DNA of 64,000 nt from positions 310,001-374,000 of the forward strand of contig CANTAL010000095.1 of NCBI GenBank assembly GCA_947650365.1, read 5' to 3'. The notes under the pieces were generated by a model. That model made no database searches, was not told the DNA's origin, and saw only the letters and a program-made list of their open reading frames with translations. Positions within the stretch are counted from its first letter, which is position 1, and each line of letters starts with the position of its first letter. Below are positions 869 to 64,000 of the stretch, piece after piece. A program made the translations under genes and the position numbers. This stretch comes from Chamaelirium japonicum (lineage: Eukaryota > Streptophyta > Magnoliopsida > Liliales > Melanthiaceae).

Positions 869-1185
869 GTTCTAATTCACTCATACGATCCATTCTAATT
901 CACTCATACGATCCATTCTAATACATTCATACGATCCATTCTAATTCATTTGCATGAATATCCATTCTAATTCATTCGTACGATCCATTCTAATTCATTC
1001 GTACGATCCATTCTAATTCCTTCGTACGATCCATTCTAATTCATTCGTACGATCTATTCTAATTCATTCGTACGATCCATTCTAATTCATTCGTACGATC
1101 CATTCTAATTCCTTCGTACGATCCATTCTAATTCATTCGTACGATCCATTCTAATTCATTCGTACAATCTATTCTAATTCATTCG
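869..1185 (-). repeat. Satellite block 1 (-), LINE-proximal
   Basis: This first block touches the LINE. Its first units are of the rarer CACTCATACG and ATACATTCATACG classes, a marker group that recurs deep in the array (about 2330, 5485, 13015, 23030, 39958, 53137, 53544, 56461, 61137). Later units are close to consensus. It ends at the CATTCGTACGAATG palindrome. Confidence 0.93.
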
Positions 1186-1692
1186 TACGAATGGATACAT
1201 TCGTGTGAATGAATTAGAATGGATCGTACGAATGAGTAAGAATGGATCGTACGAATGAAATAGAATGGATTGCACGAATGAATTAGAATGGATCGTACGA
1301 ATGAATTAGAATGGATCGTGTGAAAGAATTAGAATGGATTGTATCAATGAATTAGAATGGATCGTACGAAGGAATTAGAATAGATCGTACGAATGAATTA
1401 GAATGGATCGTACGAATGAATTAGAATAGATCGTACGAATGAATTAGAATGGATCGTACAAATGAATTAGATTAGATCGTACGAATGAATTAGAATGGAT
1501 CGTACGAATGAATTAGAATGGATCATGTGAACGAATTAGAATGGATCGTACGAATGAATTAGAATGGATCATGTGAAAGAATTAGAATGGATCGTACGAA
1601 TGAATTAGAATGGATCGTGCGAATGAATTAGAATGGATCGTACGAATGAATTAGAATGGATCGTGCTAATGAATTAGAATTGATCGAACGAA
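1186..1692 (+). repeat. Satellite block 2 (+)
   Basis: The block opens with ATGGATACATTCGTGTG, the signature of a switch found six times in the window. It holds GAGTAAG and GAAATAG marker monomers and several GATCATGTG or GTGTGAAAG variants. It closes at GAATTC, the palindromic switch near 1692. Confidence 0.92.
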
Positions 1693-2590
1693 TTCATTCT
1701 AATTCATTCATACAATCCATTCTAATTCTTTCACACGATCCATTCTAATTCATTCGTACGTTCTATTCTAATTCATTAGCACGATCCATGCTAATTCATT
1801 CTTATTCATTTGTATCGATTCTAATCCATTCGCACGATCCATTCTAATTCATTCGTAGGATCCATTCTAATTCATTAATATGATCCATTCTAATTCATTC
1901 GTACGATCCATTCTAATTCATATGCACAAAGGTATCCATTCTAATCCATTCATAGGATCCATTCTAATCCATTTGTACGATCCATTCTAATTCATTCGTA
2001 CGATCCATTCTAATTCATTCGCTCGAATGTATCCATTCTAATCCATTCGTACGATCCATTCTAATCCATTCGTAAGATCCATTCTAATTCATTCGCATTA
2101 ATGTAACCATTCTAATTCATTCATTTGATCCATTCTAATTCATTCGTACGATCCATTCTAATTCATTCGCACGATCCATTCTAATTCATTCATAGGATCC
2201 ATTCTAATTCATTCGTACAATCCATTCTAATTCTTTCACACGATCCATTCTAATTCATTCATACGATCCATTCTAATTCATTCATACAATCCATTCTAAT
2301 TCATTCGTACGACCCATTCTAATTCACTCATACAATCCATTCTAATACATTCATACGATCCATTCTAATTCATTTGCACGAATATATCCATTCTAATTCA
2401 TTCGAATGATCCATTCTAATTCCTTCGTACGATCTATTCTAATTCATTTGTACGATCTATTCTAATTCATTTGTACGATCCATTCTAATTCATTCGTACG
2501 ATCCATTCTAATTCCTTCGTACGATCCATTCTAATTCATTCGTACGATCCATTCTAATTCATTCGTACAATCTATTCTAATTCATTTGTA
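1693..2590 (-). repeat. Satellite block 3 (-)
   Basis: The block begins with the CATACAATCC / TTTCACACG marker pair, then CATTAGCACGATCCATGC near 1770, and an ACAAAGGTATCC 28-bp variant near 1925. It repeats the LINE-proximal CACTCATAC/ATACATTC group near 2325-2390. It ends in the same kind of switch as block 1. Confidence 0.92.
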
Positions 2591-2700
2591 CGAATGGATA
2601 CATTCGTGTGAATGAATTAGAATGGATCGTACGAATGAGTAAGAATGGATCGTACGAATGAAATAGAATGGATTGCACGAATGAATTAGAATGGATCGTA
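2591..2700 (+). repeat. Satellite block 4 (+), short
   Basis: Four to five monomers starting with the GATACATTCGTGTG unit and carrying GAGTAAG, GAAATAG and ATTGCACG markers in the same order as the start of block 2. The block ends at GGATCGTACGATCC, a perfect palindrome. Confidence 0.9.
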
Positions 2701-2769
2701 CGATCCATTCTAATTCATTCGTACGATCCATTCTTACTCATTCGTACAATCTATTCTAATTCATTTGTA
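2701..2769 (-). repeat. Satellite block 5 (-), three monomers
   Basis: Exactly about three 23-bp units (69 bp), including CTTACTCATTCG and ACAATCTATTC variants, between two palindromic switches. The neighbouring + blocks 4 and 6 begin with the same units, so a strand switch followed by local duplication is likely. Confidence 0.9.
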
Positions 2770-3458: not shown

Positions 3459-3885
3459 TCGTACGATCCATTCGAATTCATTCGCACGATCCATTCTAAT
3501 TCATTCATATGATCCATTCTAATTCATTCATACAATCCATTCTAATTCTTTCACACGATCCATTCTAATTCATTCATAGGATCCATTCTAATTCATTCGT
3601 ACAATCTATTCTATTTTATTTGTACGATCCATTCTTACTCATTCGTATGATCCATTCTAATTTATTCGGACGAATGTATACATTCTAATTTATTCGTACG
3701 ATCCATTCAAATTCATTCGTACGATCCATTCTAATTCATTCGTACGATCCATTCTTACTCATTCGTATGATCCATTCTAATTCATTCGTACGATCCATTC
3801 TAATTCATTCATACGATCCATTCTAATTCATTCGCACAATCTATTCTAATTCATTCGTACGATCCATTCTAATTCATTCGTACGA
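3459..3885 (-). repeat. Satellite block 7 (-)
   Basis: Opens CGATCCATTCGAATTC, a start shared with the blocks at 33238, 55761 and 59391. It continues with the CATACAATCC/TTTCACACG pair and the ACAATCTATTC, TTACTCATTCG and TTCGGACG series in the order seen at 33.3 and 55.8 kb. Ends at CGTACGATCGTACG. Confidence 0.92.
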
Positions 3886-4640
3886 TCGTACGAATGAATT
3901 AGAATGGATCGTACGGAATGAATTAGAATGGATTGTATGAATGAATTAGAATGGATACATTCGTGCGAATGAATTAGAATGGATCATACGAATGAGTAAG
4001 AATGGATCGTACGAATGAAATAGAATGGATTGTATGAATGAATTAGAATGGATCGTACAAATGAATTAGAATGGATCGTACGAATGAATTAGAATGGATC
4101 ATACGAATGAGTAAGAATGGATCGTACAAATGAAATAGAATGGATTGTACGAATGAATTAGAATGGATCGTACGAATGAATTAGAATGGATCGTGTGAAA
4201 GAATTAGAATGCATTATATGAATGAATTAGAATGGATCGTATGCATGAATTAGAATGGATCATGCGAATGAATTCGAATAGATCGTATGATCCATTCGAT
4301 TAGAATGGATCGTATGAATGAATTAGAATGGTTCAGGCGAATGAATTAGAACGGATTGTAGGATTGAATTAGAATGGACCGTATGAATGAATTAGAATGG
4401 ATCGTATGAATGAATTACAATGGATCGTGCGAATAAATTAGAATGGATCGTACGAATGAATTTAAATGGATCGTACGAATGACTTAGAATGGATCATACG
4501 AATGAATTAGAATGGATCATACGAATGAGTAAGAATGGATCATACGAATGAAATAGAATGGATTGTACGAATGAATTAGAATGGATACATTCATGCGAAT
4601 GCATTAGAATGGATCGGACGATTGAATTAGAATGGATCGT
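3886..4640 (+). repeat. Satellite block 8 (+) with a ~15-bp inverted island
   Basis: Starts at a long perfect palindrome and carries an extra G (CGTACGGAATG) near 3915. A short opposite-strand island, TGATCCATTCGA, lies at about 4288-4299. The block's right half, including the island, is repeated near 21.95-22.38 kb. Confidence 0.9.
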
Positions 4641-6833: not shown

Positions 6834-7519
6834 ATGGATCATGCCAATGAATTAGAATGGAATATACGAATGAATTAGAATGGATCGTAGAATGGATCGT
6901 ACGAATGAATGAGAATGGATCGTACGAATGAATTAGAATAGATCATAGGAATGAATTAGAATGGATCGTGCAAATGAATTAGAATGGATACATTCGTGCG
7001 AATAAATTAGAATGGATCGTGCGAATGAATTAGAATGATTCGTACGAATGAATTAGAATGGATATATTTGAACGAATAAATTAGAATGGATCATACGAAT
7101 GAATTAGATTGGATCGTACGAATGAATTAGAATGGATAGTGCGAATGAATTAGAATCGATCGTACGAATGAATTAGAATGGATCATACGAATAAATTAGA
7201 ATGGATCATACGAATGAGTAAGAATGGATCGTACGAATGAATTAGAATGGATCGTACGAATGAATTAGAATGGGTCGTACGAATAAATTAGAATGGATAC
7301 ATTCGTCCGAACGAATTAGAATGGATCATACGAATGAGTAAGAATGGATCATACGAATGAAATAGAATAGATTGTACGAATGAATTAGAATGGATCCTAC
7401 GAATGAATTAGAATGGATCGTGTGAAAGAATTAGAATGGATTGTATGAATGAATTAGAATGGATCGTATGAATGAATTAGAATGGATCGTACGAATAAAT
7501 TCGAATGGATCGTACGAAT
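6834..7519 (+). repeat. Satellite block 12 (+)
   Basis: Starts with GAATATACG and GATCGTAGAATGG irregular units shared with 12.4 and 49.1 kb, then GATATATTTGAACG near 7060, GAGTAAG markers and the GTGTGAAAG/ATTGTATG pair. Ends at GAATTC. Confidence 0.92.
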
Positions 7520-8044
7520 TCATTCTAATTCATTGATACAATCCATTCTAATTCTTTCACACGATCCATTCTAATGCATTCGTACGTTCCATTCTAATTC
7601 ATTAGCACTATCCATGCTAATTCATTCGTTCGATCAATTCTAATTCATTAGCACGATCCATTCTAATTCATTCGTACGATCCATTCTAATTCATTCGCAC
7701 GATCCATTCTAATTCATTCATAGGATCCATTCTAATTCATTCATACGATCTATTCTAATTCTTTCGCACGAATGTATCCATTCTAATTCATTCGCACGAA
7801 TGTATCCATTGTAATTCATTCGTACGATCCATTCTAATTCATTCGTACGATCCATTCTAATTCATTCATATGATCCATTCTAATTCATTCATACAATCCA
7901 TTCTAATTCTTTCACACGATCCATTCTAATTCATTCGTACGATTCATTCTAATTCATTCGCACAATCCATTCTATTTCATTCGTACGATCCATTCTTACT
8001 CATTCGTATGATCCATTCTAATTCATTCGCACGAAGGTATCCAT
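7520..8044 (-). repeat. Satellite block 13 (-)
   Basis: Carries the TTAGCAC/ATGC/GTTCGATC marker set at about 7595-7660 and the CATAGG, TTTCGCACG and TTTCACACG series. It ends at GTATCCATAATGGATC. The block matches 29.5-29.8 kb. Confidence 0.92.
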
Positions 8045-8214
8045 AATGGATCATACGAATGAGTAAGAATGGATCGTACGAATGAAATAGAATGGATTGT
8101 GCGAATGAATTAGAATGGACCGTACGAATGAATTAGACGTACGAATGAATTAGAATGGATACATTCGTGCGAATAAGTTATAATGGATCATACGAATGAG
8201 TAAGAATGGATCGT
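8045..8214 (+). repeat. Satellite block 14 (+), 170 bp
   Basis: A short + block with a truncated monomer TTAGACGTACG at 8134-8144. The same truncation and both switch points recur 21,738 bp downstream at 29784-29952. It ends at GGATCGTCATTC. Confidence 0.92.
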
Positions 8215-9231
8215 CATTCTAATTCATTCGTATGATCCATTCTAATTCATTTGTATCCATTCTATTTCATTCGCACGAACCATTCTAATTCATTCGCACA
8301 ATCTATTCTAATTCATTCGTACGATCCATTCTAATTCATTCGTACGATCTATTCTAATTCATTCATACATTCCTTTCTAATTTATTCGCACGAATGTATC
8401 CATTCTAATTCATTCGTACGATCCATTCTAATTCATTCGCACAATCTATTCTAATTCATTCATACGATCCATTCTAATTCATTCGCACGAATGTATCCAT
8501 TCTAATTCATTGATATGATCCATTCTACTTCATTCATACTATCCGTTCTAATTCACTCATACGATCCATTCTAATTCATTCATACGATCCATTCTAATTT
8601 ATTCGCACGAATATATCCATTCTAATTCTTTCGTTCGATGCATTCTAATTCATTCGTACGATCCATTCTAATTCATTCATTTGATCCATTCTATTTCATT
8701 CGTACGATCCATTCTAATTCATTCGTCCGATCCATTCTAATTCATTCGCACGAATGTATCCATTCTAATTCATTCGTACGATCCATTCTAATTCATTCGC
8801 ACGATCCATTCTAATTCATTCGTACGATCCATTCTAATTCATTCATACGATCCATTCTAATTCATTCATACAATCCATTCTAATGCTTTCACACGATCCA
8901 TTCTAATTCATTCGTAGGATCCATTCTATTTCATTCGTACGATCCATTCTTACTCATTGGTACGATCCATTCTAATTCATTCGCACGAATGTATCCATTC
9001 TAATTCATTCGTACGAATCCATTCTAATTCATTCGTACAATCTATTCTATTTCATTCGTACGATCCATTCTAATCCATTCTAATCCATTCTAATTCATTC
9101 GTACGATCCATTCGTACTCATTCGTATGATCCATTCTAATTCATTCGTACGATCTATTCTAATTCATTTGTAAGATCCATTCTAATTCATTAATATGATC
9201 CATTCTAATTCATTCGTACGATCCATTCTAA
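8215..9231 (-). repeat. Satellite block 15 (-)
   Basis: Its first ~400 bp match the block at 29953, including the short ATTTGTATCCATTC unit. Near 9070-9100 there are truncated units (CCATTCTAATCC repeated). It ends at TTCTAATGAATTAGAA, a switch shared with 23311. Confidence 0.92.
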
Positions 9232-11452: not shown

Positions 11453-12329
11453 ATTAATTATACGAATGAGTAAGAATGGATCGTACGAATGAAATAGAAT
11501 GGATTGTGCGAATGAATTAGAATGGACCGTACGAATGAATTAGAATGGATCGTACGAATGAATTAGAATGGATATATTTGAACGAATAAATTAGAATGGA
11601 TCATACGAATCAATTAGAATGGATCGTACGAATGAATTAGAATGGATAGTGCGAATGAATTAGAATCGATCGTATGAATGAATTAGAATGGATCGTACGA
11701 ATGAATTAGAATGGATCATACGAATGAGTAAGAATGGATCGTACGAATGAATTAGAATGGATCATACGAATGAATTAGAATGGATCATACGAATAAATTA
11801 GAATGGATACATTCGTCCGAATGAATTAGAATGGATCATACGAATAAGTAAGAATGGATCGTACGAATGAAATAGAATAGATTGTATGAATGAATTAGAA
11901 TGGATCCTACGAATGAATTAGAATGGATCGTACGAATGAATTAAAATGGATCATATTAACGAATTAGAATGGATCGTACGAATGAATTAGAATGGATACA
12001 TTCGTGCGAATAAAATAGAATGGATTGTATGAATGAATTATAGAATGGATCGTACGAATGAATTAGAATGGATCGTACGAATGAATTAGAATAGATTGCG
12101 CGAATGAATTAGAATGGATCGTACGAATGAATTAGAATGGATCGTACGAAGGAATTAGAATGGATCGTACGAATGAATTAGAATGGATCGTACGAATGAA
12201 TTAGAATGGATCGTACGAAGGAATTAGAATGGATCGTACGAATGAATTAGAATGGATCGTACGATTGAATTAGAATGGATCATACGAATGAGTAAGAATG
12301 GATCGTATGAATGAATTAGATTGGATCGT
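11453..12329 (+). repeat. Satellite block 18 (+)
   Basis: Carries GATATATTTGAACG near 11570 and GATCATATTAACG near 11950. The right end repeats the flank of block 10, with offset 5,519 bp, up to the single-monomer inversion. Confidence 0.92.
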
Positions 12330-12352
12330 ACGATCCATTCTAATTCATTAGC
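12330..12352 (-). repeat. Satellite block 19 (-), one inverted monomer
   Basis: Second copy of the single-monomer inversion. Its left palindrome and the GAATATACG unit on its right sit at exactly the same spacing as at 6.8 kb. Confidence 0.88.
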
Positions 12353-12713
12353 ATGGATCGTGCTAATGAATTAGAATGGAATATACGAATGAATTAGAAT
12401 GGATCGTAGAATGGATCGGAGAATGGATCGTACGAATGAATTAGAATAAATTAGAATGGATCGTACGAATGAATTAGAATAGATCATAGGAATGAATTAG
12501 AATGGATCGTGCAAATGAATTAGAATCGATACATTCATGCGAATAAATTAGAATGAATTGTTTAAATGAATTAGAATGGATCGTACGAATGAATTAGAAT
12601 GGATTGTACGAATGAATTAGAATAGATTGCGCGAATGAATTAGAATGGATCGTGCGAATGAAATAGAATGGATACAAATGAATTAGAATGGATCATACGA
12701 ATGAATTAGAATG
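12353..12713 (+). repeat. Satellite block 20 (+)
   Basis: Contains irregular GATCGTAGAATGG and GATCGGAGAATGG units near 12400 and a GATACAAATG unit near 12670. It ends at GAATGACGATCC, a switch shared with 30.8 kb. Confidence 0.9.
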
Positions 12714-14854: not shown

Positions 14855-17391
14855 CGTACGATCCATTCTAATTCATTCGTCCGATCCATTCTAATTCATT
14901 CGCACGAATGTATCCATTCTAATTCATTCGTATGTACGATCCATTATAATTCATTCATTTGATCCATTCTAATTCATTCGTATGATCCATTCTAATTCAT
15001 TCGTCCGATCCATTCTAATTCATTCGCACGAATGTATCCATTCTAATTCATTCGTACGGTCCATTCTAATTCATTCGCACGATCCATTCTAATTCATTCG
15101 TACGATCCATTCAAATTCATTCATACGATCTATTCTAATTCATTCATACAATCCATTCCAATTCTTTCACACGATCCATTCTAATTCATTCGTGCGATCA
15201 ATTCTAATTCATTCGTACGATCCATTCTATTCTAGTTCATTCGTACGATCCATTCTAATTTATTCGTACGATCCATTCTAATTCATTCGTAGGATCCATT
15301 CTAATTCATTCGTAAGATCCATTCTAATTCATTCGTACGATCCATTCTAATTCATTCGTACGATCCATTCTAATTCATTCGTATGATCCATTCTAATTCA
15401 TTCGTATGATCCATTCTAATTCATTCATACGATCTATTCTAATTCATTCATTCGTACGATCCATTCTAATACATTCGCACGATTCATGCTAATTCATTCG
15501 CACGATCCATTCTAATTCATTCGTACGATCCATTCTTATTCATTCATACGATCCATTCTAATTCTTTCACACGATCCATTCTAATTCATTCGTACGATCC
15601 ATTCTAATTCATTCGTACGATCTATTCTAATTCATTCGTACGATCCATTCTAATTCCTTCGTACGATCCATTCTAATTCCTTCGTACGATCCATTCTAAT
15701 TCATTCATACAATCCATTCTAATTCTTTCACACGATCCATTCTAATTCATTTGTACGTTCCATTCTAATTCATTAGCACAATCCATGCTAATTCATTCGT
15801 ACGATCAATTCTAATTCATTAGCACGATCCATTCTAATTCATTCGCACGATCCATTCTAATTCATTCATATGATTCATACTAATTCATTCATACGATCTA
15901 TTCTAATTCTTTCGCACGAATATATCCATTCTAATTCATTTGTACGATCCATTCTAATTCCTTCGAACGATCCATTCTAATTCATGCGTACGATCTATTC
16001 TATTTCATTCGTACGATCCATTCTTACTCATTCGTACGATCCATTCTAATTCATTCGTCTGATCCATTCTAATTCATTCGCACAAATGTATACATTCTAA
16101 TTCATTCGTTCGATCAATTCTAATTCATTAGCACGATCCATTCTAATTCATTCGTACGATCCATTCTAATTCATTCGCACGATCCATTCTAATTCATTCA
16201 TAGGATCCATTCTAATTCATTCGTACGATCCATTCTAATTCATTCGTACAATCCATTCTAATTCATTCGCACAATCCATTCTATTTCATTCGTACGATCC
16301 ATTCTTACTCATTGGTACGATCCATTCTAATTCATTCGCACGAATGTATCCATACTAATTCATTCGTACGAATCCATTCTAATTCATTCGTACAATCTAT
16401 TCTATTTCATTCGTACGATCCATTCTTACTCATTCGTATGATCCATTCTAATTCATTCGGATGAATGTATCCATTCTAATTTATTCGTACGATCCATTCT
16501 AATTCATTCGTACGATCCATTATAATTCATTCGTCCGATACATTCTAATTCATTCGCACGAATGTATCCATTCTAATTCATTCGTACGAATGTATCCATT
16601 CTAATTCATTCGTACGATCCATTCTAATTCATTCGTACGATCCATTCTAATTCATTCGTACGATCCATTCTAATTCATTCGTACGATCCATTCTAATTTA
16701 TTTGCATGAATGTATCCATTCTAATTCATTAGTACAATCCATTCTATTTCATTCGTACGATCCATTCTTACTCATTCGTATGATCCATTCTAATTCATTC
16801 GTACGATCCATTCTAATTCATTCGTACGATCCATTCTAATTCATTCGCACGATCCATTCTAATTCATTCATACGATCCATTCTAATTCATTCATACGATC
16901 CATTCTAATTCATTCCTACAATCCATTCTAATTCATTCGCCCGATCCATTCTAATTCATTCATACGATCCATTCTATTCGAATGGATCATGCGATCCATT
17001 CGAATTCATTTGCACGATCCATTCTAATTCATTCATACGATCGATTCTAATTCATTCATACAATGCATTCTAATTCTTTCACACGATCCATTCTAATTCA
17101 TTCGTACGATCCATTCTAATTCATTCGTACAATCCATTCTATTTCATTTGTACGATCCATTCTTACTCATTCGTATGATCCATTCTAATTCATTCGTACG
17201 ATCCATTCTAATTCATTTGTTCGATCCATTCTAATTCATTCATACAATCCATTCTATTTCATTCGTACGATCCATTCTTACTCATTCGTATGATCCATTC
17301 TAATTCATTCGCACGAATGTATCGATTCTAATTCATTCATACAATCCATTCTAATTCATTCCGTACGATCCATTCTAATTCATTCGTACGA
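14855..17391 (-). repeat. Satellite block 23 (-), 2.5 kb, with a 13-bp island
   Basis: One of the longest - blocks. A 13-bp + island, GAATGGATCATGC, lies at 16979-16991, flanked by CTATTC and GATCCATTCGAATTC. Marker groups TTAGCAC (15770) and TTTCACACG (several) are present. It ends at CGTACGATCATACG. Confidence 0.9.
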
Positions 17392-17796
17392 TCATACGAA
17401 TGAATTAGAATGGATCGTACGAATGAATTAGAATAGATTGTGTGAATGAATTAGAATGGATCGTACGAATGAATTAGAATGGATCGTACGAATGAATTAG
17501 AATGGATCATACGAATGAGTAAGAATGGATCGTACGAATGAATTAGAATGGATCGTACGAATGAATTAGAATGGATACATTCGTCCGAATGAATTATAAT
17601 GGATCATACGAATGAGTAAGAATGGATCGTACGAATGAAATAGAATAGATTGTACGAATGAATTAGAATGGATCCTACGAATGAATTAGAATGGATCGTG
17701 TGAAAGAATTAGAATGGATTGTATGAATGAATTAGAATGGATCGTATGAATGAATTAGAATGGATCGTGCGAATGAATTCGAATGGATCGTACAAA
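17392..17796 (+). repeat. Satellite block 24 (+)
   Basis: Carries GATACATTCGTCCG, GAGTAAG, GAAATAG, GATCCTACG and GTGTGAAAG in the order also seen at 7.3, 26.5, 46.4 and 63.5 kb. It ends just after GAATTCGAATGG, at AATTCATTC. Confidence 0.91.
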
Positions 17797-20352: not shown

Positions 20353-20785
20353 TCCATTCTAATTCATTTGTACGATCCATTCTAATTCATTCCCACGATC
20401 CATTCTAATTTATTCGTACGATCCATTCTAATTCATTCGTACGATCTATTCTAATTCATTCGCACGAATGTAACCATTCTAATTCATTCATACGATTTAT
20501 TCTGATTCATTCGTATGAGCTATTCTAATTCATTCGTACGATCCATTCTAATTCATTCGTATGATCCATTGTAATTCATTCATACAATCCATTTAGATTC
20601 ATTCGCACAAATTTATCCATTCAAATTCATTCGTACGATCCAGTCTAATTCATTCGTACGATCCATTCTAATTCATTCGTACGATCCAGTCTAATTCATT
20701 CGTACAATCCATTCTAATTCATTCGTACGATCCATTCTAATTCATTCGTACAATCCATTCTAATTCATTCGCACGAATGTATCCA
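20353..20785 (-). repeat. Satellite block 29 (-)
   Basis: Carries CCCACG, ATGAGCTATTC and CCATTTAGATTC variants in the order of blocks 9 and 33, so it is a third partial copy of that series. Ends at GTATCCATAATGGATC. Confidence 0.91.
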
Positions 20786-21400
20786 TAATGGATCATACGA
20801 ATGAGTAAGAATGGATCGTACGAATGAAATAGAATGGATTGTGCGAATGAATTAGAATGGACCGTACGAATGAATTAGAATGGATCGTACGAATGAATTA
20901 GAATGGATATATTTGAACGTATAAATTAGAATGGATCATACGACTAAATTAGAATGGATCGTACGAATGAATTAGAATGGATAGTACGAATTAATTAGAA
21001 TCGATCGTACGAATGAATTAGAATGGATCGTATGAATGAATTAGAATGGATCATACGAATGACTAAGAATGGATCGTACGAATGAATTTGAATGGATACA
21101 TTTGTGCGAATGAATCTAAATGGATTATATGAATGAATTACAATGGATCGTACGAATGAATTAGAATGGATCGTACGAATGAATTAGAATGGATCAAATG
21201 AATGAATTAGAATGGTTACATTCATGCGAATGAATTAGAATGGATCGTACGAATGGATAAGAAGGGATCGTATGAGTGAATTAGAATGGATACGAAGGAA
21301 TTAGAATGGATCGTACGAAGGAATTAGAATGGATCATACGAATGAAATAGAATGGATCGTACGAAGGAATTAGAATGGATCGTACGAAGGAATTAGAATG
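20786..21400 (+). repeat. Satellite block 30 (+)
   Basis: Starts like blocks 14, 40 and 58. The right ~215 bp (GATCAAATG, GGTTACATTCATG, GTATGAGTG, GATACGAAGG) are repeated about 4.04 kb further on at 25.22-25.44 kb. Ends at GAATGCATTC. Confidence 0.91.
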
Positions 21401-21614
21401 CATTCGTACGATCCATTCTAATCCATTCGTACAATCCATTCTAATTCATTCATACGATCCATTCTATTTCATTCGCACGATCCATTCTAATTCTTTCGTA
21501 CGATGCGTTCTAATTCATTCATACGATCCATTCTAATTCATTCATTTGATCCATTCTAATTCATTCGTACGATCCATTCTAATTCATTCGTCCGATCCAT
21601 TCTAATTCATTCGC
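21401..21614 (-). repeat. Satellite block 31 (-)
   Basis: About nine units. The whole block, with both its boundaries, is copied at 25438-25653 and differs at only a few bases. It ends at CATTCGCTTGAATTAG. Confidence 0.92.
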
Positions 21615-22381
21615 TTGAATTAGAATGAATTGTATGAATGAATTAGAATGGATCGTACGAATGAATTAGAATGGATCGTACGAATGAATTAGAATGGATC
21701 GTACGAATGAATTAGAATGGATCGTACGAATGAATTAGAATAGATCGTACGAATGAATTAGAATGGATCGTACGAAGGAGAATGGATCGTACGAATGAAT
21801 TAGAATAGATATCTTCGTGCAAATGAATTAGAATGGATCGTATGAATGTATTAGAATGGATCGTATGAGTGAATTAGAATGGATCGTACGAATGAATTAG
21901 AATGGATCGTATGAATGAATTAGAATGGATCGTGCGAAAGAATTAGAATGCATTGTATGAATGAATTAGAATGGATCGTATGAATGAATTAGAATGGATC
22001 GTGCGAATGAATTCGAATGGATTGCATGATCTGTTCGAATAGAATGGATCGTATGAATGAATTAGAATGGATCGGGCGAATGAATTAGAATGGATTGTAG
22101 GAATGATTTTGAATGGATCGTATGAATGAATTAGAATGGATCGTATGAATGAATTAGAATGGATCGTGCGAATGAATTAGAATGGATCATACGAATGAAT
22201 TAGAATGGATCGTCCAAATGAATTAGAATGGATCATACGAATTAATTAGAATGGATCATACGAATGAGTAAGAATGGATCGTACGAATGAAATAGAATGG
22301 ATTGTACGAATGAATTAGAATGGATACATTCATGCGAATGAATTAGAATGGATCGGACGATTGAATTAGAATGGATCGTAT
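21615..22381 (+). repeat. Satellite block 32 (+) with a ~12-bp inverted island
   Basis: Includes a truncated unit near 21776 (GAAGGAGAATGG). A reverse island, TGATCTGTTCGA, lies at about 22027-22038, the counterpart of the island at 4.29 kb. The right end matches block 8 up to its switch. Confidence 0.89.
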
Positions 22382-25068: not shown

Positions 25069-25437
25069 ACGAATGAATTAGAATGGATCGTACGAATGAA
25101 TTAGAATGGATCGTACGAATGAATTAGAATGGATCAAATGAATGAATTAGAATGGTTACATTCATGCGAATGAATTAGAATGGATCGTACGAATGGATTA
25201 GAATGGATCGTACGAATAAATTAGAATGGATCAAATGAATGAATTAGAATGGTTACATTCATGCGAATGAATTAGAATGGATCGTACGAATGGATTAGAA
25301 TGGATCGTATGAGTGAATTAGAATGGATACGAAGGAATTAGAATGGATCGTACGAAGGAATTAGAATGGATCATACGAATGAAATAGAATGGATCGTACG
25401 AAGGAATTAGAATGGATCGTACGAAGGAATTAGAATG
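25069..25437 (+). repeat. Satellite block 36 (+)
   Basis: Holds two GATCAAATG / GGTTACATTCATG groups about 115 bp apart. The second one and everything to the right is the 4.04-kb-spaced copy of block 30. Ends at GAATGCATTC. Confidence 0.91.
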
Positions 25438-25653
25438 CATTCGTACGATCCATTCTAATCCATTCGTACAATCCATTCTAATTCATTCATGCGATCCATT
25501 CTATTTCATTCGCACGATCCATTCTAATTCTTTCGTACGATGCATTCTAATTCATTCATACGATCCATTCTAATTCATTCATTTGATCCATTCTAATTCA
25601 TTCGTACGATCCATTCTAATTCATTCGTCCGATCCATTCTAATTCATTCGCAT
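25438..25653 (-). repeat. Satellite block 37 (-)
   Basis: A near-identical copy of block 31. Its switch to + retains the same irregular GAATTAGAATGAATTG unit on the right. Confidence 0.92.
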
Positions 25654-27370: not shown

Positions 27371-27414
27371 GGATTAGAATGGATTAGAATGGATTAGAAT
27401 GGATTAGAATGGAT
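27371..27414 (+). repeat. Nested 10-bp tandem repeat
   Basis: The unit GGATTAGAAT is repeated a little over four times in perfect register. It looks like slippage or unequal exchange of the half-monomer GAATGGATTA, and it interrupts the 23-bp register just before the first GATACCTTTGTGC unit. Confidence 0.95.
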
Positions 27415-28640: not shown

Positions 28641-29783
28641 TTCATTCTAATTCATTCATACAATCCATTCTAATTCATTCGTACGTTCCATTCTAATTCA
28701 TTAGCACGATCCATGCTAATTCATTCGTTCGATCAATTCTAATTCATTAGCACGATCCATTCTAATTCATACGTACGATCCATTCTAATTCATTCGCACG
28801 ATCCATTCTAATTCATTCATAGGATCCATTCTAATTCATTCATACGATCTATTCTAATTCTTTCACACGAATGTATCCATTCTAATTCATTCGCATGAAT
28901 GTATCCATTCTAATTCATTCGTACGATCCATTCTAATTCATTCGCACAAATATATCCATTCTAATTCATTCGTACGATCCATTCTAATTCATTCGCACGA
29001 TCCATTCTAATTCATTCGTACAATCCATTCTTATTTTTTCACACGATCTATTCTAATCCATTCTAATTCATTCATACGAATCCATTCTAATTCATTCGTA
29101 CAATCTATTCTATTTCATTCGTACGATCCATTTTTACTCATTCGTATGATCCATTCTAATTCATTCGGACGAATGTATCCATCCTAATTTATTCGTACGA
29201 TCCATTCTAATTCATTCGTACGATCCTTTCTAATTCATTCGCTCGAATGTATCCATTCTAATCCATTCGTATGATCCATTCTAATCCATTCGTACGATCC
29301 ATTCTAATTCATTCGCATGAATGTATCCATTCTAATTCATTCATTTGATCCATTCTAATTCATTCGTACGATCCATTCTAATTCATTAGCATGATCCATG
29401 CTAATTCATTTGTTCGATCAATTCTAATTCATTAGCACGATCCATTCTAATTCATTCGTACGATCCATTCTAATTCATTCGCACGATCCATTCTAATTCT
29501 TTCATAGGATCCATTCTAATTCATTCATACGATCTATTCTAATTCTTTCGCACGAATGTATCCATTCTAATTCATTCGCACGAATGTATCCATTCTAATT
29601 CATTCGTACGATCCATTCTAATTCATTCATACAATCCATTCTAATTCTTTCACACGATCCATTCTAATTCATTTGTACGATCCATTCTAATTCATTCGCA
29701 CAATCCATTCTATTTCATTCGTACGATCCATTCTTACTCATTCGTATGATCCATTCTAATTCATTCGCACGAATGTATCCATA
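28641..29783 (-). repeat. Satellite block 39 (-)
   Basis: Two TTAGCAC/ATGC/GTTCGATC sets (near 28700 and 29385) show an internal duplication of ~0.7 kb. The right half matches block 13. Ends at GTATCCATAATGGATC. Confidence 0.92.
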
Positions 29784-29952
29784 ATGGATCATACGAATGA
29801 GTAAGAATGGATCGTACGAATGAAATAGAATGGATTGTGAGAATGAATTAGAATGGACCGTACGAATGAATTAGACGTACGAATGAATTAGAATGGATAC
29901 ATTCGTGCGAATAAATTAGAATGGATCATACGAATGAGTAAGAATGGATCGT
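29784..29952 (+). repeat. Satellite block 40 (+), 170 bp
   Basis: Copy of block 14 with identical length and the same truncated TTAGACGTACG monomer (at 29872-29882). Confidence 0.92.
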
Positions 29953-30379
29953 CATTCTAATTCATTCGTATGATCCATTCTAATTCATTTGTATCCATTC
30001 TATTTCATTCGCACGATCCATTCTAATTCATTCGCGCAATCTATTCTAATTCATTCGTACGATCCATTCTAATTCATTCGTACGATCCATTCTAATTCAT
30101 TCATACAATCCATTTTAATTTATTCGCACGAATATATCCATTCTAATTCATTCGTACGATCCATTCTAATTCATTCACACAATCTATTCTAATTCATTCA
30201 TACGATCCATTCTAATTCATTCGCACGAATGTATCCATTCTAATTCATTCATACGATCCATTCTACTTCAATCGTACTATCCATTCTAATTCACTCATAC
30301 GATCCATTCTAATTCATTCATACGACCCATTCTAATTCATTTGCACGAATATATACATTCTAATTCATTCGTACGATCC
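29953..30379 (-). repeat. Satellite block 41 (-)
   Basis: Copy of the left part of block 15, beginning CATTCTAATTCATTCG and including the short ATTTGTATCC unit. It breaks off at GTACGATCCTGAATTAG without a clean palindrome. Confidence 0.9.
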
Positions 30380-30817
30380 TGAATTAGAATGGATCGTACG
30401 AATGAATTAGAATGGATACCTTTGTGCATATGAATTAGAATGGATCGTACGAATGAATTAGAATGGATCATATTAATGAATTAAAATGGATCGTACGAAT
30501 GAATTAGAATGGATACATTCGTGCGAATGAATTAGAATGGATTGTATGAATGAATTAGAATAGATTTTATGAATGAATTAGAACTGATCGTACGAATGAA
30601 TTAGAATGGATACATTCGTGCGAATGAATTAGAATGGATTGTATGAATGAATTAGAATGTATCCTATGAATGAATTAGAATGGATCGTACGAATGAGTAA
30701 GAATGGATTGTACGAATGAATTAGAATAGATTGCGCGAATGAATTAGAATGGATCGTGCGAATGAAATAGAATGGATACAAATGAATTAGAATGGATCAT
30801 ACGAATGAATTAGAATG
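30380..30817 (+). repeat. Satellite block 42 (+)
   Basis: Carries a GATACCTTTGTGC unit near 30416 and a GATACAAATG unit near 30775. The right end and its GAATGACGATCC switch copy the end of block 20. Confidence 0.9.
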
Positions 30818-30987
30818 ACGATCCATTCTTACTTATTCGTATGATCCATTCTAATTTATTCGCACAAATGTATCCATTCTAATTCATTCGTACGTCTAAT
30901 TCATTCGTACGGTCCATTCTAATTCATTCGCACAATCCATTCTATTTCATTCGTACGATCCATTCTTACTCATTCGTATGATCCATT
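30818..30987 (-). repeat. Satellite block 43 (-)
   Basis: Seven or so monomers with one truncated join (TTCGTACGTCTAATTC near 30888). It ends at GATCCATTATGGATAC, related to but distinct from the CCATAATGG switch. Confidence 0.9.
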
Positions 30988-33237
30988 ATGGATACATTCG
31001 TGCGAATGAATTAGAATGGATCATATGAATGAGTAAGAATGGATCGTACAAATGAAATAGAATGGATTGTGCGAATAAATTAGAATGGATCGTACGAATG
31101 AATTAGAATGGATCGTGTGAAAGAATTAGAATGGATTGTATGAATGAATTAGAATAGATCGTATGAATGAATTAGAATGGATCGTACGAATGAATTAGAA
31201 TGGATCGTATGAATGAATTAGAATGGATCGTACGAATGAATTAGAATGGATACATTCACGAACGAATTAGAATGGATCGTACGAATGAATTAGAATGGAT
31301 CGTACGAATGAATTAGAATGGATCTGACGAATGAATTAAAATGGATCGTATGAATGAATTAGAATGGATCGTACGAATGAATTAGAATGGATACATTTGT
31401 GCGAATGAATTAGAATGGATCATATGAATTAATTAGAATGAATCGTATGAATGAATTAGAATGGATCGTACGAATGAATTAGAATGGTTCGTACGAAGGA
31501 ATTAGAATGGATCGTACGAATGAATTAGAATGGATATATTCGTGCAAATGAATTAGAATGGATCGTATGAATGTATTAGAATGGATCGTATGAGTGAATT
31601 AGAATGGATCGTGCAAATGAATTAGAATGGATTGTATGAATGAATTAGAATGGATCGTACGAATGAATTAGAATGGATATTACGAATGAATTAGAATGGA
31701 TCATACGAATGAATTAGAATTAGAATGGATATATTTGTGCGAATGAATTAGAATGGATACATTCGTGCGAAAGAATTAAAATAGATCGTATGAATGAATT
31801 AGAATGGATCCTATGAATGAATTAGAATGGATCGTGCGAATGAATTAGAATGGATCGTACGAATGAATTAGAATGGATACATTCGTGCGAATGAATTAAA
31901 ATGGATCGGACGAATGAATTAGAATGGATCGTACGAATGAATTAGAATGGATCAAATGAATGAATTAGAATGGTTACATTCATGCGAATGAATTAGAATG
32001 GATCGTACGAATGGATTAGAATGGATCGTACGAATGGATTAGAATGGATACATTCGAGCGAATGAATTAGAATGGATCGTACGAATGAATTAGAATGGAC
32101 CGTACGAATGAATTAGAATGGATCGTACGAATGAATTAGAATGGATCGTGTGAAAGAATTAGAATGGATTGTATGAATGAATTAGAATAGATCGTATGAA
32201 TGAATTAGAATGGATCGTACGAATGAATTAGAATGGATCGTACGAATGAATTAGAATGGATACATTCGTGCGAATGAATTAGAATGGATACATTCGTGCG
32301 AAAGAATTAGAATAGATCGTATGATTGAATTAGACTGGATCCTATGAATGAATTAGAATGGATCGTGCGAATGAATTAGAATGGATCGTACGAATGAATT
32401 AGAATGGATCACGTGAAAGAATTAGAACGGATTGTACGAATGAATTAGAATGGATCGTGCGAATGAATTAGAATGGATCGTACGAATGAATTAGAATGGA
32501 TACATTTGTGCGAATGAATTAGAATGGATCGTACGAATGAATTAAAATGGATCGTGCTTATGAATTAGAATTGATCGAACGAATGAATTAGCATGGGTCG
32601 TGCTAATGAATTAGAATGGATCGTACGAATGAATTAGAATGGATCGTGCGAATGAATTAGAATGGATCGTACGAATGAATTAGAATGGATCGTGCTAATG
32701 AATTAGAATTGATCGAACGAATGAATTAGCATGGATCGTGCTAATGAATTAGCATGGATCGTGCTAATGAATTAGAATGGATTCGTACGAATGAATTAGA
32801 ATAGATCGTGTGAAAGAATTAGAATGGATCGTACGAATGAATTAGAATGGATCATGCGAATGAATTAGAATGGATCGTACGAATGAATTAGAATGGATAC
32901 ATTTGTGCGAATGAATTAGAATGGATCGTACGGATGAATTAGAATGGATACATTCGTGCGAATGAATTAGAATGGATACATTCGTGCGAAAGAATTAAAA
33001 TAGATCGTATGAATGAATTAGAATGGATCCTATGATTGAATTAGAATGGATCGTGCGAATGAATTAGAATGGATCATACGAATGAATTAGAATGGATCAT
33101 GCTAATGAATTAGAATTGATCGAACGAATGAATTAGCAAGGATCGTGCTAATGAATTAGAAAGGAACATACGAATGAATTAGAATGGATCGTGTGAAAGA
33201 ATTAGAATGGATTATATGAATGAATTAGAATGAATTC
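30988..33237 (+). repeat. Satellite block 44 (+), 2.3 kb
   Basis: Contains the second copy of the 13.6-14.2 kb series (31.50-32.01 kb). It also has three GTGCTAATG/GATCGAACG/TTAGCA sets near 32550, 32690 and 33105, the + form of a set abundant in - blocks. Ends at GAATTCGTACGATCC. Confidence 0.92.
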
Positions 33238-43878: not shown

Positions 43879-44105
43879 TCATTCTAATTCATTTGTATCC
43901 ATTATATTTCATTCGCACGATCCATTCTAACTCATTCGCGCAATCTATTCTAATTCATTCGTACGATCCATTCTAATTCATTCGTACGATCCATTCTCAT
44001 TCATTCATACAATCCATTCTAATTTATTCGCACGAATGTATCCATTCTAATTCATTCGTACGATCCATTCTAATTCATTCGCACAATCCATTCTAATTAA
44101 TTCGT
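43879..44105 (-). repeat. Satellite block 59 (-)
   Basis: Third copy of the left part of block 15, without one unit. It breaks at AATTCGTACGAATG after ~225 bp. Confidence 0.91.
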
Positions 44106-47015: not shown

Positions 47016-49013
47016 GGAATAGATCGTATGAATGAATTAGAATGGATCCTATGAATGAATTAGAATGGATCGTGCGAATGAATTAGAATGGATCGTACGA
47101 ATGAATTAGAATGGATCTTACGAATGAATTAGAATGGATCGTACGAATGAATTAGAATGGATCGTACGAATGAACTAGAATGGATACATTCGTGCGAATG
47201 AATTAGAATGATCGTACGAATGAATTAGAATGGATCGTACGAATGAATTAGAATGGATCTTACGAATGAATTAGAATGAATCGTACGAATGAATTAGAAT
47301 GGATCGTACAAATGAATTAGAATGGATACATTCGTGCGAATGAATTAGAATGGATCGGACGAATGAATTAGAATGGATCGTACGAATGAATTAGAATGGA
47401 TCGTACGAAGGAATTAGAATGGATCGTACGAATGAGTAAGAATGGATCGTACGAATGAATTAGAATGGATTGTATGAATAAATTAGAATGGATACATTCG
47501 TCCGAATAAAATAGAATGGATCATACGAATGAGTAAGAATGGATCGTACGAATGAAATAGAATAGATTGTACGAATGAATTAGAATGGATCCTACGAATG
47601 AATTAGAATAGATCATACGAATGAATTAGAATGGATCGTACGAATGAATTAGAATGGATCGTGCGAATGAATTAGAATGGATACATTCGTGCGAATTAAT
47701 TAGAATGAATCGTACGAATTAATTAGAATGGATACATTCGTAGGAATGAATTAGAATGGATTGTATGAATGAATTAGAATGGATCGTACGAATGAATTAG
47801 AATGGATCATACGAATTAATTAGAATGGATCATACGAATGAATTAGAATGGATCATACGAATGAATTAGAATGGATCGTACGAATGAATTAGAATGGATA
47901 CATTCGTGCGAATGAATTAGAATGGATTGTGCGAATGAATAAGAACAGATCGTGCGAATGAATTAGAATAGATCGTACGAATGAATTAGAATGGATCGTG
48001 CGAATGAATTAGAATGGATCGTACGAATGAATTAGAATGGATACATTTGTGCGAATGAATTAGAATGGATCGTACGAATGAATTAGAATGGATGATATGA
48101 ATGAATTAGAATGGATCGTACGAATGAATTAGAATGGATCATGCGAATGAATTAGAATGGATCGTACGAATGAATTAGAATGGATCGTACGAATGAACTA
48201 GAATGGATACATTCGTGCGAATGAATTAGAATGGATCGTACGATTGAATTAGAATGGATCTTACGAATGAATTAGAATGGTTCGTACGAATGAATTAGAA
48301 TGGATACATTCGTGCGAATGAATTAGAATGGATCGGACGAATGAATTAGAATGGATCGTAGGAATGAATTAAAATGGATCGTACGAATGAATTAGAATGG
48401 ATCGTACGAATAAATTAGAATGGATACATTCGTCCGAATGAATTAGAATGGATCATACGAATGAGTAAGAATGGATCGTACGAATGAAATAGAATAGATT
48501 GTACGAATGAATTATAATGGATCCTACGAATGAATTAGAATGGGTCGTGTGAAAGAATTAGAATGGATTGTATGAATGAATTAGAATGGATCGTATGAAT
48601 GAATTAGAATGGATCGTATGAATGAATTAGAATGGATCGTACGAATGAATTAGAATGGATTGTACGAAAGAATTAGAATGGATACATTCGTGCGAATAAA
48701 TTAGAATGGATTGTATGAATGAATTAGAATGGATCGTACGAATGAATTAGAATGGATCGTACGAATGAATTAGAATAGATTGCGCGAATGAATTAGAATG
48801 GAACGTGCGAATGAATTAGAATGGATCGTACGAAGGAATTAGAATGGATCGTACGAATGAATTAGAATGGATCGTACGAATGTATTAGAATGGATCGTAC
48901 GAAGGAATTAGAATGGATCGTACAAATGAATTAGAATGGATCGTACGATTGAATTAGAATGGATCATACGAATGAGTAAGAATTGATCGTATGAATGAAT
49001 TAGATTGGATCGT
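47016..49013 (+). repeat. Satellite block 62 (+), 2.0 kb
   Basis: Contains GAATAAGAACAGATCG at 47935-47950, a rare unit shared with 54.56 and 57.58 kb. Its right ~180 bp copies the left flank of the single-monomer inversion. Confidence 0.92.
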
Positions 49014-49036
49014 ACGATCCATTCTAATTCATTAGC
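49014..49036 (-). repeat. Satellite block 63 (-), one inverted monomer
   Basis: Third copy of the single-monomer inversion, exactly 42,203 bp from the first as measured at both the left palindrome and the GGAATATAC unit. Confidence 0.88.
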
Positions 49037-51283
49037 ATGGATCGTGCTAATGAATTAGAATGGAATATACGAATGAATTAGAATGGATCGTAGAATGGAT
49101 CGTACGAATGAATTAGAATGAATTAGAATGGATCATACGAATGAATTAGAATAGATCATAGGAATAAATTAGAATGGATCCTGCAAATGAATTAGAATGG
49201 ATACATTTGTGTGAATGAATTAGAATGGATCGTGCGAATGAATTAGAATGGATCGTACGAATGAATTAGAATGGATATATTTGAACGAATAAATTAGAAT
49301 GGATCATACGAATGAATTAGAATGGATCGTACGAATGAATTAGAATGGATAGTGTGAATGAATTAGAATCGATCGTACGAATGAATTAGAATGGATCGTA
49401 CGAATGAATTAGAATGGATCATACGAATGAGTAAAAATGGATCGTACGAATGAATTAGAATGGATCGTACGAATGAATTTGAATGGATCGTACGAATAAA
49501 TTAGAATGGATACATTCATCCGAATGAATTAGAATGGATCATACGAATGAGTAAGAATGGATCATACGAATGAAATAGAATAGATTGTACGAATGAATTA
49601 GAATGGATCCTACGAATGAATTAGAATGGATCGTGTGAAAGAATTAGAATGGATTGTATGAATGAATTAGAATGGATTGTATGAATGAATTAGAATGGAT
49701 CGTGCGAATGAATTCGAATGGATCGTATGTACGAATGAATTAGAATGGATACATTCGTGCGAATGAATTAGAATGCATCGTACGAATGAATTAGAATGGA
49801 TCGTGCGAATAAATTAGAATGGAGCGTACGAATGAATTAGAATGGATCGTACGAATGAACTAGAATGGATACATTCGTGCAAATGAATTAGAATGGATCG
49901 TACGAAGGAATTAGAATGGATCTTACGAATGAATTCGAATGGATCGTACGAATAAATTAGAATGGATCGTATGAATGGTTTAGAATGGATACATTCGTGC
50001 GAATGAATTAGAATGGATTGGACGAATGAATTAGAATGGATCGCACGAATGAATTAGAATGGATCAAATGAATGAATTAGAATGGTTACATTCATGCGAA
50101 TGAATTAGAATGGATCGTACGAATGGATTAGAATGGATCGTACGAATGGATTAGAATGGATACATTCGTGCAAATAAATTAGAACGGATTATACGAATGA
50201 GTAAGAATGGATTGTACGAATGAAATAGAATGGATTGTACGAATGAATTAGAATGGATCGTGCGAATGAATTTGAATGGATCGTACGAATGAATTAGAAT
50301 GGATCATGCTAATGAATTAGAATTGATCGTACGAATGAAATAGAATGGATTGTACGAATGAATTAGAATAGATCATACGAATGAATTAGAATGGATCGTA
50401 CGAATGAACTAGAATGGATACATTCGTGCGAATGAATTAGAATTGATCGTACGAATGAATTAGAATGGATCGTACGAATGAATTAGAATGGATCGGACGA
50501 ATGAATTAGAATAGATCGTACGAATGAATTAGAATGGATCAAATGAATGAATTTGAATGGATCGTACGAATGAATTAGAATGCACCGTACGAAAGAATTA
50601 GAATGGATATATTCGTGCGAATGAATTAGAATGGATCGTACGAATGAATTAGACTGGATCGTACGAATGAATTTGATTGGATACATTTGTGCGAATGAAT
50701 CTAAATGGATTGTATGAATGAATTAGAATGGATCGTACGAATGAATTAGAATGGATCATACGAATTAATTAGAATGGATCGTACCAATGAGTAAGAATGG
50801 ATCGTACGAATGAAATAGAATGGATCGTACGAATGAATTAGAATGGATTGTACGGAATGAATTAGAATGGATTGTATGAATGAATTAGAATGGATACATT
50901 CATGCGAATGAATTAGAATGGATCATACGAATGAGTAAGAATGGATCGTACGAATGAAATAGAATGGATTGTACGAATGAATTATAATGGATCGTACAAA
51001 TGAATTAGAATGGATCGTACGAATGAATTAGAATGGATCATACGAATGAATTAGAATGGATCGTGTGAAAGAATTAGAATGGATTGTATGAATGAATTAG
51101 AATAGATCGTATGAATGAATTAGAATGGATCGTACGAATGAATTAGAATGGATCGTACGAATGAACTAGAATGGATACATTCGTGCGAATGAATAAGAAT
51201 GGATCGTACGAATGAATTAGAATGGATCGTACGAATGAATTAGAATGGATCTTACCAATTAATTAGAATGGATCGTACGAATG
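49037..51283 (+). repeat. Satellite block 64 (+), 2.2 kb
   Basis: The left part copies blocks 12 and 20 (GAATATACG, GATCGTAGAATGG, GATATATTTGAACG). It has an irregular join at 49727 (GATCGTATGTACG) and extra-G ATTGTACGGAATG near 50848. It ends at GAATGCACGATCC. Confidence 0.92.
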
Positions 51284-59324: not shown

Positions 59325-59390
59325 ACGAATGAATTAGAATGGATCGTGTGAAAGAATTAGAATGGATTGTATCAATGAATTAGAATGAAT
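59325..59390 (+). repeat. Satellite block 72 (+), ~3 monomers
   Basis: Holds just the GTGTGAAAG / ATTGTATC pair and the GAATTCGTACGATCC switch. It therefore looks like the very end of a + arm pasted between two - blocks. Confidence 0.91.
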
Positions 59391-61413: not shown

Positions 61414-63730
61414 AATAGAATGGATTGTGCGAATGAATTAGAATGGATCGTGTGAAAGAATTAGAATGGATTATATGAATGAATTAGAATAGATCGTATG
61501 AATGAATTAGAATGGATCGTACGAATGAATTAGAATGGATCGTACGAATGAATTAGATTGGATACATTCGTGCGAATGAATTAGAATGGATACATTCGTG
61601 CGAATGAATTAGAATGGATCGTACGAATGAATTAGAATGGATCGTACGAATGAATTAGAATGGATCGTGCTAATGAATTAGAATTGATCGAACGAATGAA
61701 TTAGCATGGATCGTGCTAATGAATTAGAATGGAACGTACGAATGAATTAGAATGGATCGTGTGAAAGAATTAGAATGGATTGTAGGACGAATGAATTAGA
61801 ATGGATCGTGTGAAAGAATTAGAATGGATCGTACGAATGAATTAGAATGGATCGTGCGAATGAATTAGAATGGATCGTACGAATGAATTAGAATGGATAC
61901 ATTTCTGCGAATGAATTAGAATGGATCGTACGAATGAATCAGAATGGATCGTATGAATGAATTAGAATGGATCGTACGAATGAATTAGAATGGATCGTGC
62001 GAATGAATTAGAATGGATCGTACGAATGAATTAGAATGGATCGTACGAATGAACTAGAATGGAAACATTCGTGCGAATAAATTAGAATGGATCGTACGAA
62101 TGAATTAGAATGGATCTTACGAATGAATTAGAATGGATCTTACGAATGAATTAGAATGGATCGTATGAACGAATTAGAATGGATACATTCGTGCGAATGA
62201 ATTAGAATGGATCGGACAAATGAATTAGAATGGATCATACGAATGAATTAGAATGGATCGTACAAATGAATTAGAATGGATCGTACGAATAAATTAGAAT
62301 GGATACATTCGTCCGAATGAATTAGAGTGGATCATACGAATGAGTAAGAATGGATCGTACGAAAGAAATAGAATAGATTGTACGAATGAATTAGACTGGA
62401 TTCGTACGAATGAATTAGAATGGATACATTCGTGCGAATGAATTAGAATGGATCGTACCAATGAGTAAGAATGGATCGTACGAATGAAATAGAATGGATT
62501 GTGCGAATGAATTAGAATGGATCGTACGAATGAATTAGAATGGATCGTGTGAAAGAATTAGAATGGATTGTATGAATGAATTAGAATAGATCGTATGAAT
62601 GAATTAGAATGGATCGTACGAATGAATTAGAATGGATCGTACGAATGAATTAAAATAGATCGTACGAATGAATTAGAATGGATCGTACGAAGGAATTAGA
62701 ATGGATCGTACAAATAAATTAGAATGGATATATTCGTGCAAATGAATTAGAATGGATCGTATGAATGTAATAGAATGGATCGTATGAGTGAATTAAAATG
62801 GATCGTACGAATGAATTAGAATGGTTCGTATGAATGAATTAGAATGGATACATTCATGTGAATGAATTAGAATGGATCGTATGAATGAATTAGAATAGAT
62901 TTTGTGAATGAATTAGAACTGATCGTACGAATGAATTAGAATGGATACATTCGTGCGAATGAATTAGAATGGATTGTATGAATGAATTAGAATGGATCGT
63001 ACGAATGAATTAGAATGGATCATATCAGTGAATTAGAATGGATACGAAGGAATTAGAATGGATCGTACGAATGAATTAGAATGGATCGTACGAAGGAATT
63101 AGAATGGATCGTACGAATGAATTAGAATGGATTGTACGAATGAATTAGAATAGATCGTACGAATGAATTAGAATGGATTGTACGAAGGTATTAGAATGGA
63201 TCGTACGAATGAATTAGAATGGATCGTACGAATGAACTAGAATGGATACATTCGTGCGAATGAATTAGAATGGATCGATCGAATGAATTAGAATGGATCG
63301 TACGAATGAATTAGAATGGATCTTACGAATGAATTAGAATGGATCGTACGAATGAATTAGAATGGATCGTACAAATGAATTAGAATGGATACATTCGTGC
63401 GAATGAATTAGAATGGATCGGACGAATGAATTAGAATGGATCGTACGAATGAATTAGAATGGATCGTACGAATGAATTAGAATGGATCGTACGAATAAAT
63501 TAGAATGGATACATTCGTCCGAATGAATTAGAATGGATCATACGAATGAGTAAGAATGGATCGTACGAATGTATTAGAATAGATTGTACGAATGAATTAG
63601 AATGGATCCTACGAATGAATTAGAATGGATCGTGTGAAAGAATTAGAATGGATTTTATGAATGAATTTGAATGGATCGTATGAATGAATTAGAATGGATC
63701 GTGCGAATGAATTCGAAAGGATCGTACGAA
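61414..63730 (+). repeat. Satellite block 74 (+), 2.3 kb
   Basis: GTGCTAATG/GATCGAACG/TTAGCATGG set at 61667-61715, a truncated join ATTGTAGGACG near 61780, and many 28-bp units. It ends GAATTCGAAAGG, then CGTACGAATTCATTC. Confidence 0.92.
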
Positions 63731-64000
63731 TTCATTCTAATTCATTCATACAATCCATTCTAATTCTTTCACACCATCTATTCTAATTCATTCGTTGGAT
63801 GCATTCTAATTCATTCGTACAATCTATTCTATTTCATTCGTACGATCCATTCTTACTCATTCGTATGATCCATTCTAATTCATTCGGACGAATGTATCCA
63901 TTCTAATTTATTCGTACGATCCATTCTAATTCATTCGTACGATCCATTCTAATTCATTCGTAAGATCCATTCTAATTCATTCGTACGATCCATTCTAATT
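63731..64000 (-). repeat. Satellite block 75 (-), cut by the window edge
   Basis: Opens like blocks 25 and 61, then joins the ACAATCTATTC, TTACTCATTCG and TTCGGACG series. It is still in perfect 23-bp register at the last base, so the array continues to the right. Confidence 0.93.

Follow-up and report, generated by a model that had tools for sequence, protein, structure and literature searches.

Recurrent and copied direction switches in a tandem satellite array very probably of the Chio centromere type

The satellite array and its direction switches

The window, i.e., the whole stretch of 64,000 nucleotides that was analysed, consists of a fragment of a LINE reverse transcriptase, which we take to be of plant type, and a tandem satellite array (Table 1). 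The array is very probably the already described Chio repeat, a centromere satellite of a lily-like plant with chromosome-long centromeres, to which it was matched by described features. According to a hidden Markov model (HMM), it begins directly after the LINE fragment. The background state of the model was confined to positions 1-869, and no non-satellite insertion was called across the 63 kb of the array. The border at 860-900 can be read both ways, the LINE frame extending into Chio DNA as MDRMSELER, around GAATTAGAA. This overlap may reflect microhomology at the insertion site of a 5'-truncated LINE, or the Chio unit may descend from LINE coding sequence. Chio is described as having no similarity to annotated transposable elements in the excerpted text of the original publication (PMC10264360).

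The main period of the array is 23 bp (TRF), and the unit, TTCTAATTCATTCGTACGATCCA, is intermixed with a 28-bp form. The two are a 5-bp indel and one substitution apart. Across the whole array, the insert ATGTA is absent in 2280 unit passes and present in 367, and CGCACGA replaces CGTACGA in the 28-bp form, as seen by eye. The commonest spacings of the 28-bp unit are 143, 97, 120, 74, 28, and 235 bp (n x 23 + 28), which is a loose higher-order repeat with no single fixed length. The TCGTACGA dyad occurs 937 times in the array, and the + strand carries 409 copies of the 9-bp TTCGTACGA box and 531 copies of its complement. A hairpin is predicted to form between two adjacent units.

Variation within the unit is highest at four positions (indices 13, 14, 16, and 17), all of which lie within the TCGTACGA box. 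The consensus share is 78.5%, 74.0%, 81.9%, and 86.3% at these positions, respectively, and 90-99% at the others. Hence, in this array, it is not the box that is conserved within the unit. At three of the four positions, the changes are mainly G>A or C>T at CpG, which fits the decay of methylated CpG. Among the youngest-looking local duplications is a 300-bp stretch at 27401, repeated about 570 bp further on (27401-28272) with 99.7% identity. No match to Rfam was found at the gathering threshold, a 33-bp pattern of the array gave no hit in viral contigs, and six monomer strings searched as text in the literature gave no match.

Switches of direction were called with a strand-aware HMM that models the 23-bp unit together with its 28-bp variant. 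Depending on the switch probability, 76 (1e-2), 72 (1e-3 and 1e-4), or 68 (1e-5, 1e-6, and 1e-8) switches were obtained, and some of the shortest blocks vary with the setting. A simpler HMM of the 23-bp unit yielded 69 blocks. The set analysed here is that of the 1e-4 setting. Its 72 switches separate 73 blocks with lengths between 24 and 2987 bp and a median of 599 bp, which total 27,243 bp in the forward and 35,888 bp in the reverse direction. These figures bear out the preliminary description, made from the sequence alone, which had counted about 74 reversals in 63 kb and 75 blocks of 23 bp to 3 kb (36.0 and 27.1 kb in the two directions). When all reverse blocks were flipped, no switch was called at three HMM settings, and a simulated one-way array in which 10% of the bases had been redrawn likewise gave none (one setting tried). 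The block lengths fit an exponential distribution with a mean of 865 bp (KS p = 0.81), so that the switches appear to be randomly placed. No fixed or periodic block length was seen among the blocks of the array.

Table 1 Features of the window, with positions counted from its first nucleotide
Feature	Position	Strand	Details
LINE reverse-transcriptase fragment	1..869	-	297-aa ORF, frame 893 to 3; Pfam RVT_1 E = 3.9e-20; leaves the window at its left end
Satellite array, very probably Chio1/Chio2-type	870..64000	.	TRF, HMM, controls; 73 blocks of alternating direction; runs beyond the right window end
Junction tag 1 (R>F)	7507..7531	+	12 copies, up to 2 mismatches; others start at 1681, 17785, 28629, 46559, 63719 (+) and 3445, 21390, 25427, 33222, 55743, 59377 (-)
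Junction tag 2 (R>F)	8202..8225	+	5 identical copies; others start at 29940, 43867 (+) and 12703, 30807 (-)
Junction tag 3 (F>R)	1181..1205	+	7 copies; others start at 2584, 2763, 53354, 53782, 56723 (+) and 6562 (-)
Junction tag 4 (F>R)	20775..20800	+	5 copies; others start at 8033, 29771, 43715 (+) and 30974 (-)
Segment with junction 3885	3701..4528	.	Inverted copy 16749-17576, 828 bp, 96.7%, junction 17391
Segment with junctions 8044 and 8214	7850..8628	.	Direct copy 29588-30366, 779 bp, 96.8%, junctions 29782/29952
Segment with a one-monomer (24-bp) inverted block between junctions 12325 and 12349	11961..12418	.	Direct copy 48647-49102, 458 bp, 97.8%
Segment with junctions 21400 and 21615	21131..21699	.	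Direct copy 25168-25736, 569 bp, 98.1%
Inverted duplication centred on junction 30379	29588..31182	.	Arms 29588-30105 and 30665-31182, 518 bp, 97.7%; spacer 560 bp

Recurrent junctions and copied segments

Many junctions of the array are, to a large extent, copies of one another and not separate events. Four tags of 24-26 bp (at most 2 mismatches) account for 29 of the 72 junctions, with a strand distribution of 19 to 10. The shuffles used in the tag search are a weak null for satellite DNA, and long shared flanks are the stronger evidence. For instance, junctions 7517 and 33232 have a common flank of 612 bp (96.7% identity) in inverted orientation. Whole segments with their junctions were also found again elsewhere in the array (Table 1). 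The one carrying junctions 8044 and 8214 has, in addition to its direct copy, a partial inverted copy at 30665-31228 (564 bp, 96.6%) around junctions 30817 and 30987.

Junction types were defined over 200 bp by single-linkage clustering, in which each of the 72 junctions was compared within its own type. At identity thresholds of 0.88, 0.90, 0.92, and 0.94, this gave 20, 29, 37, and 44 clusters, and 43 of the 72 junctions have a sister at the 0.94 threshold. Phase-matched control pairs reach 0.90 at the 95th percentile and 0.938 at the 99th. Since 5% of the control pairs reach 0.90, some of the junction links are due to chance. Tags and clusters do not always coincide. Junctions 21400 and 25437 each differ from tag 1 by a single mismatch, yet they cluster apart at 0.90, and junction 43879 matches tag 2 exactly, yet it is unclustered.

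The recurrence of junctions in both orientations indicates that many of the direction switches were inherited and copied. In this respect, the picture of some 74 separate strand-switch events conveyed by the preliminary description is not supported. The alternation of direction in Chio arrays is already known and published; what is new about it is the junction evidence. The inheritance and copying of switches is testable over roughly 100 Chio units and against the one-way arrays of the sister genus.

Near-identical segments of at least 200 bp and at least 96% identity form 511 pairs, which cover 81% of the array. They comprise 272 direct pairs (up to 936 bp) and 239 inverted pairs (up to 828 bp), and 46 of the 511 contain a junction at least 30 bp inside. 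Direct and inverted pairs number 17 vs 18 within 1 kb and 98 vs 99 within 10 kb. The closest relative is inverted for 45.5% of 444 single-block chunks, with 48.5% expected if direction is ignored; these are the chunks, of 629 in all, that lie wholly in one block and have a full-length partner, and they overlap and are non-independent. Moreover, the per-position variant frequencies are almost equal between the two directions. Chunk relatives, pair ranges, and variant frequencies together indicate that the two directions behave nearly as one pool. At 97% identity or above, the closest relative is inverted for 38.8% of 103 chunks, with 48.3% expected, so recent copying leans to the direct orientation.

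For direct pairs, 7.5% of the segment ends are found no more than 10 bp from a junction, and for inverted pairs 9.0%, compared to 2.4% at random. This weak enrichment implies that the birth of junctions is mostly not caught, and segment ends were discarded as junction birth sites.

Possible origins of the switches

We consider it probable that the window comes from the interior or margin of a centromere unit in Chionographis japonica or a closely related species, and that fewer switches than the 72 now seen were seeded there and then spread by orientation-blind copying. A broken or stalled end would now and then join a copy on the opposite strand, giving a new switch. The seeding join would often involve a few bases of microhomology, partly at the self-complementary TCGTACGA box. 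As soon as the array contains both directions, homology-directed repair could take donors of either direction, and such repair would multiply and shuffle the existing switches. Gene conversion, break-induced replication, and crossover between inverted repeats are candidate routes. Conversion, break-induced replication, duplication, and inverted-repeat crossover look alike in one sequence, and the first switches may have been fold-backs. Hairpin-induced breaks, ectopic recombination, and non-allelic gene conversion were suggested for Chionographideae in an excerpted section of a later study (PMC12722358, section 12). As such routes are already suggested there, the mechanism considered for the window extends that idea with junction evidence.

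The sequence around the junctions is compatible with such seeding. When one value is taken for each of the 29 junction types, microhomology averages 2.24 bp vs 0.83 bp in random joins of real flanks (p = 0.00015). It reaches at least 3 bp in 12 of the 29 types, compared to 7-10% of the random joins, and is absent in 13. Regarding the dyad, 25 of the 36 R>F junctions lie at the TCGTACGA dyad phase or one step off, and 1 of the 36 F>R junctions lies exactly at it. As many R>F junctions are copies, this preference may be a founder effect. The preliminary description had pointed to a process of repeated strand switching, for example at palindromes; the use of palindromes and microhomology is indeed visible.

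It is tentatively suggested that the alternation in Chio is self-propagating. A limited number of switches, partly seeded at TCGTACGA, would lead to dense inverted repeats, in which repair from either strand would relocate and duplicate switches. If true, this may relate to the spread of Chio into about 100 centromere units, unlike the one-way Chama satellite of the sister genus. Junctions are, moreover, countable markers for the evolution of centromere satellites.

Fold-back synthesis, which the preliminary description had named as a possible source, assumes that a strand end folds over at a dyad and uses the stretch just before it as template, each switch being the centre of a palindrome. 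As the general explanation, it is improbable. Near inverted arms surround five junctions: 30379 (Table 1), 56732 (488 bp, 96.3%), 55753 (528 bp, 97.0%), 35694 (330 bp, 96.1%), and 63729 (262 bp, 96.6%). The 200-bp mirror arms of junctions 63729, 56732, and 1190 are 94-96% identical, and the TCGTACGA dyad phase is found at many R>F junctions, as fold-back would have it. By a hand count, 17 of the 20 inverted pairs within 1.5 kb lie around exactly one junction. These nearby pairs speak against the copying reading, since local fold-back or inverted duplication gives the same pattern. When the two 200-bp arms of each of the 72 junctions were searched for matches within a 60 bp offset, however, the mirror arm was the best match in none of the 144 cases. 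Nor is a junction's own mirror arm closer than the arms of other junctions. When each right arm was compared with 12 other junctions, the mean percentile was 0.51, and the own arm was best in 2 of 72 cases, with 5.5 expected. As the inverted pairs straddling 55753 and 56732 were listed at larger offsets, the comparison was repeated with 1-kb flanks for 69 of the 72 junctions, three being too near an end. The own arm was best in 2 of the 69, with 2.1 expected (mean percentile 0.55, p = 0.066). A general fold-back signal is absent, or at most a weak one. Furthermore, three of the five junctions with near arms (56732, 55753, and 63729) belong to the copies of tags 1 and 3. Their arms may therefore tell nothing about how the junction first arose.

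The mirror-arm counts of 0/144 and 2/69 thus do not support fold-back as a general origin of the junctions now seen, and it was kept for a few. It is possible for some junctions and for old founding ones. Junction 30379 is the best candidate, and it is possibly a single inverted-duplication event. The blocks around it are mirror-like, with lengths of 170 and 427 bp on one side and 438 and 170 bp on the other. In single-strand folding, five of six junction stretches beat their shuffles (z between -3.0 and -9.7, with energies as low as -20.8 kcal/mol), and the sixth, 44087-44132, folds no better than shuffles (z -1.17). Better folding would be expected of inverted junctions of the array unit whatever their origin.

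The copying reading was also weighed against accumulated inversions, including inverted-repeat crossovers, in an array otherwise growing by direct duplication. Crossovers between existing inverted blocks would flip the intervening DNA without new junctions and so produce copies of either orientation, and among the youngest copies the direct orientation is the commoner one; both points agree with this alternative. Nevertheless, we regard it as unlikely. The phase relation expected of a simple inversion was found exactly in none of the 71 pairs of consecutive junctions and within one step in 2 of the 71 (shuffled means 1.7 and 4.2), in a test that is blind to inversions later overwritten, as later copying could erase the phase relation. 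With no common dyad-centre phase at the block breakpoints, simple inversion was discarded. To this extent, the earlier judgement that the switches are too frequent for rare inversions is supported, the pattern being different from that of a few simple inversions. The re-insertion of extrachromosomal satellite circles in random orientation is one of the routes proposed for the spread of Chio in the excerpted section 14 of PMC10264360, and it would fit dispersed short segments in random orientation. Whole-unit circles inserted without loss would, however, resemble an inversion in the phase relation that they leave. This relation was not seen, and an origin from circles appears very unlikely. False switches from an assembly or read artefact are the least credible explanation and highly improbable. 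Satellite arrays are difficult to assemble, but the junction copies carry point differences and sit in diverged flanks, and the junction arms are not identical mirror images. In addition, alternation was reported from a HiFi assembly (PMC10264360), which also argues against an artefact if the window belongs to that assembly. According to the excerpted methods, the 2023 assembly was made with Hifiasm from PacBio HiFi libraries of 14-26 kb (PMC10264360).

Identity with Chio and comparison with other satellites

The identification of the array with Chio1/Chio2 relies on the combination of unit lengths, 5-bp indel, TCGTACGA dyad, TTCGTACGA box, and mixed orientation. Chio1 and Chio2 of Chionographis japonica, which is Chamaelirium japonicum in the NCBI taxonomy, are described in the excerpted text as intermingled units of 23 and 28 bp which differ by a 5-bp deletion and one substitution, contain an 8-bp dyad, and form mixed forward and reverse arrays (Kuo et al. 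2023, PMC10264360). The window has the same features. The 8-bp dyad of that paper is presumably TCGTACGA. No difference between Chio1/Chio2 and the window was seen in the features described in these excerpts, the comparison being one of features and not of consensus letters. Chio is the CENH3-bound satellite of the holocentric C. japonica, and its units span 0.24-4.46 Mb (PMC10264360, in excerpt). By analogy with this published work, the array of the window would bind CENH3 and carry the kinetochore.

As judged by titles and the beginnings of abstracts, no second satellite with frequent alternation was found among the papers listed in the literature searches. Large arrays with some strand reversals are found among human satellites 2 and 3 and in alpha satellite with local inversions. 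The reversals are far sparser there, and no common descent is claimed. Those orientation and inversion passages of PMC7004042 that were listed (12 of 13) make no mention of frequent alternation.

A further comparison is offered by Chama, the satellite of Chamaelirium luteum, for which the excerpts of the 2025 study were used (PMC12722358). The 9-bp TTCGTACGA box is common to Chio and Chama units, and Chama shares both this box and a predicted hairpin with the window. In contrast, the Chama unit is 60 bp long, and its arrays are reported to be homogeneous and to run in one consistent direction. The same study sets the "frequently alternating orientation" of Chio against the consistent orientation of Chama (PMC12722358).
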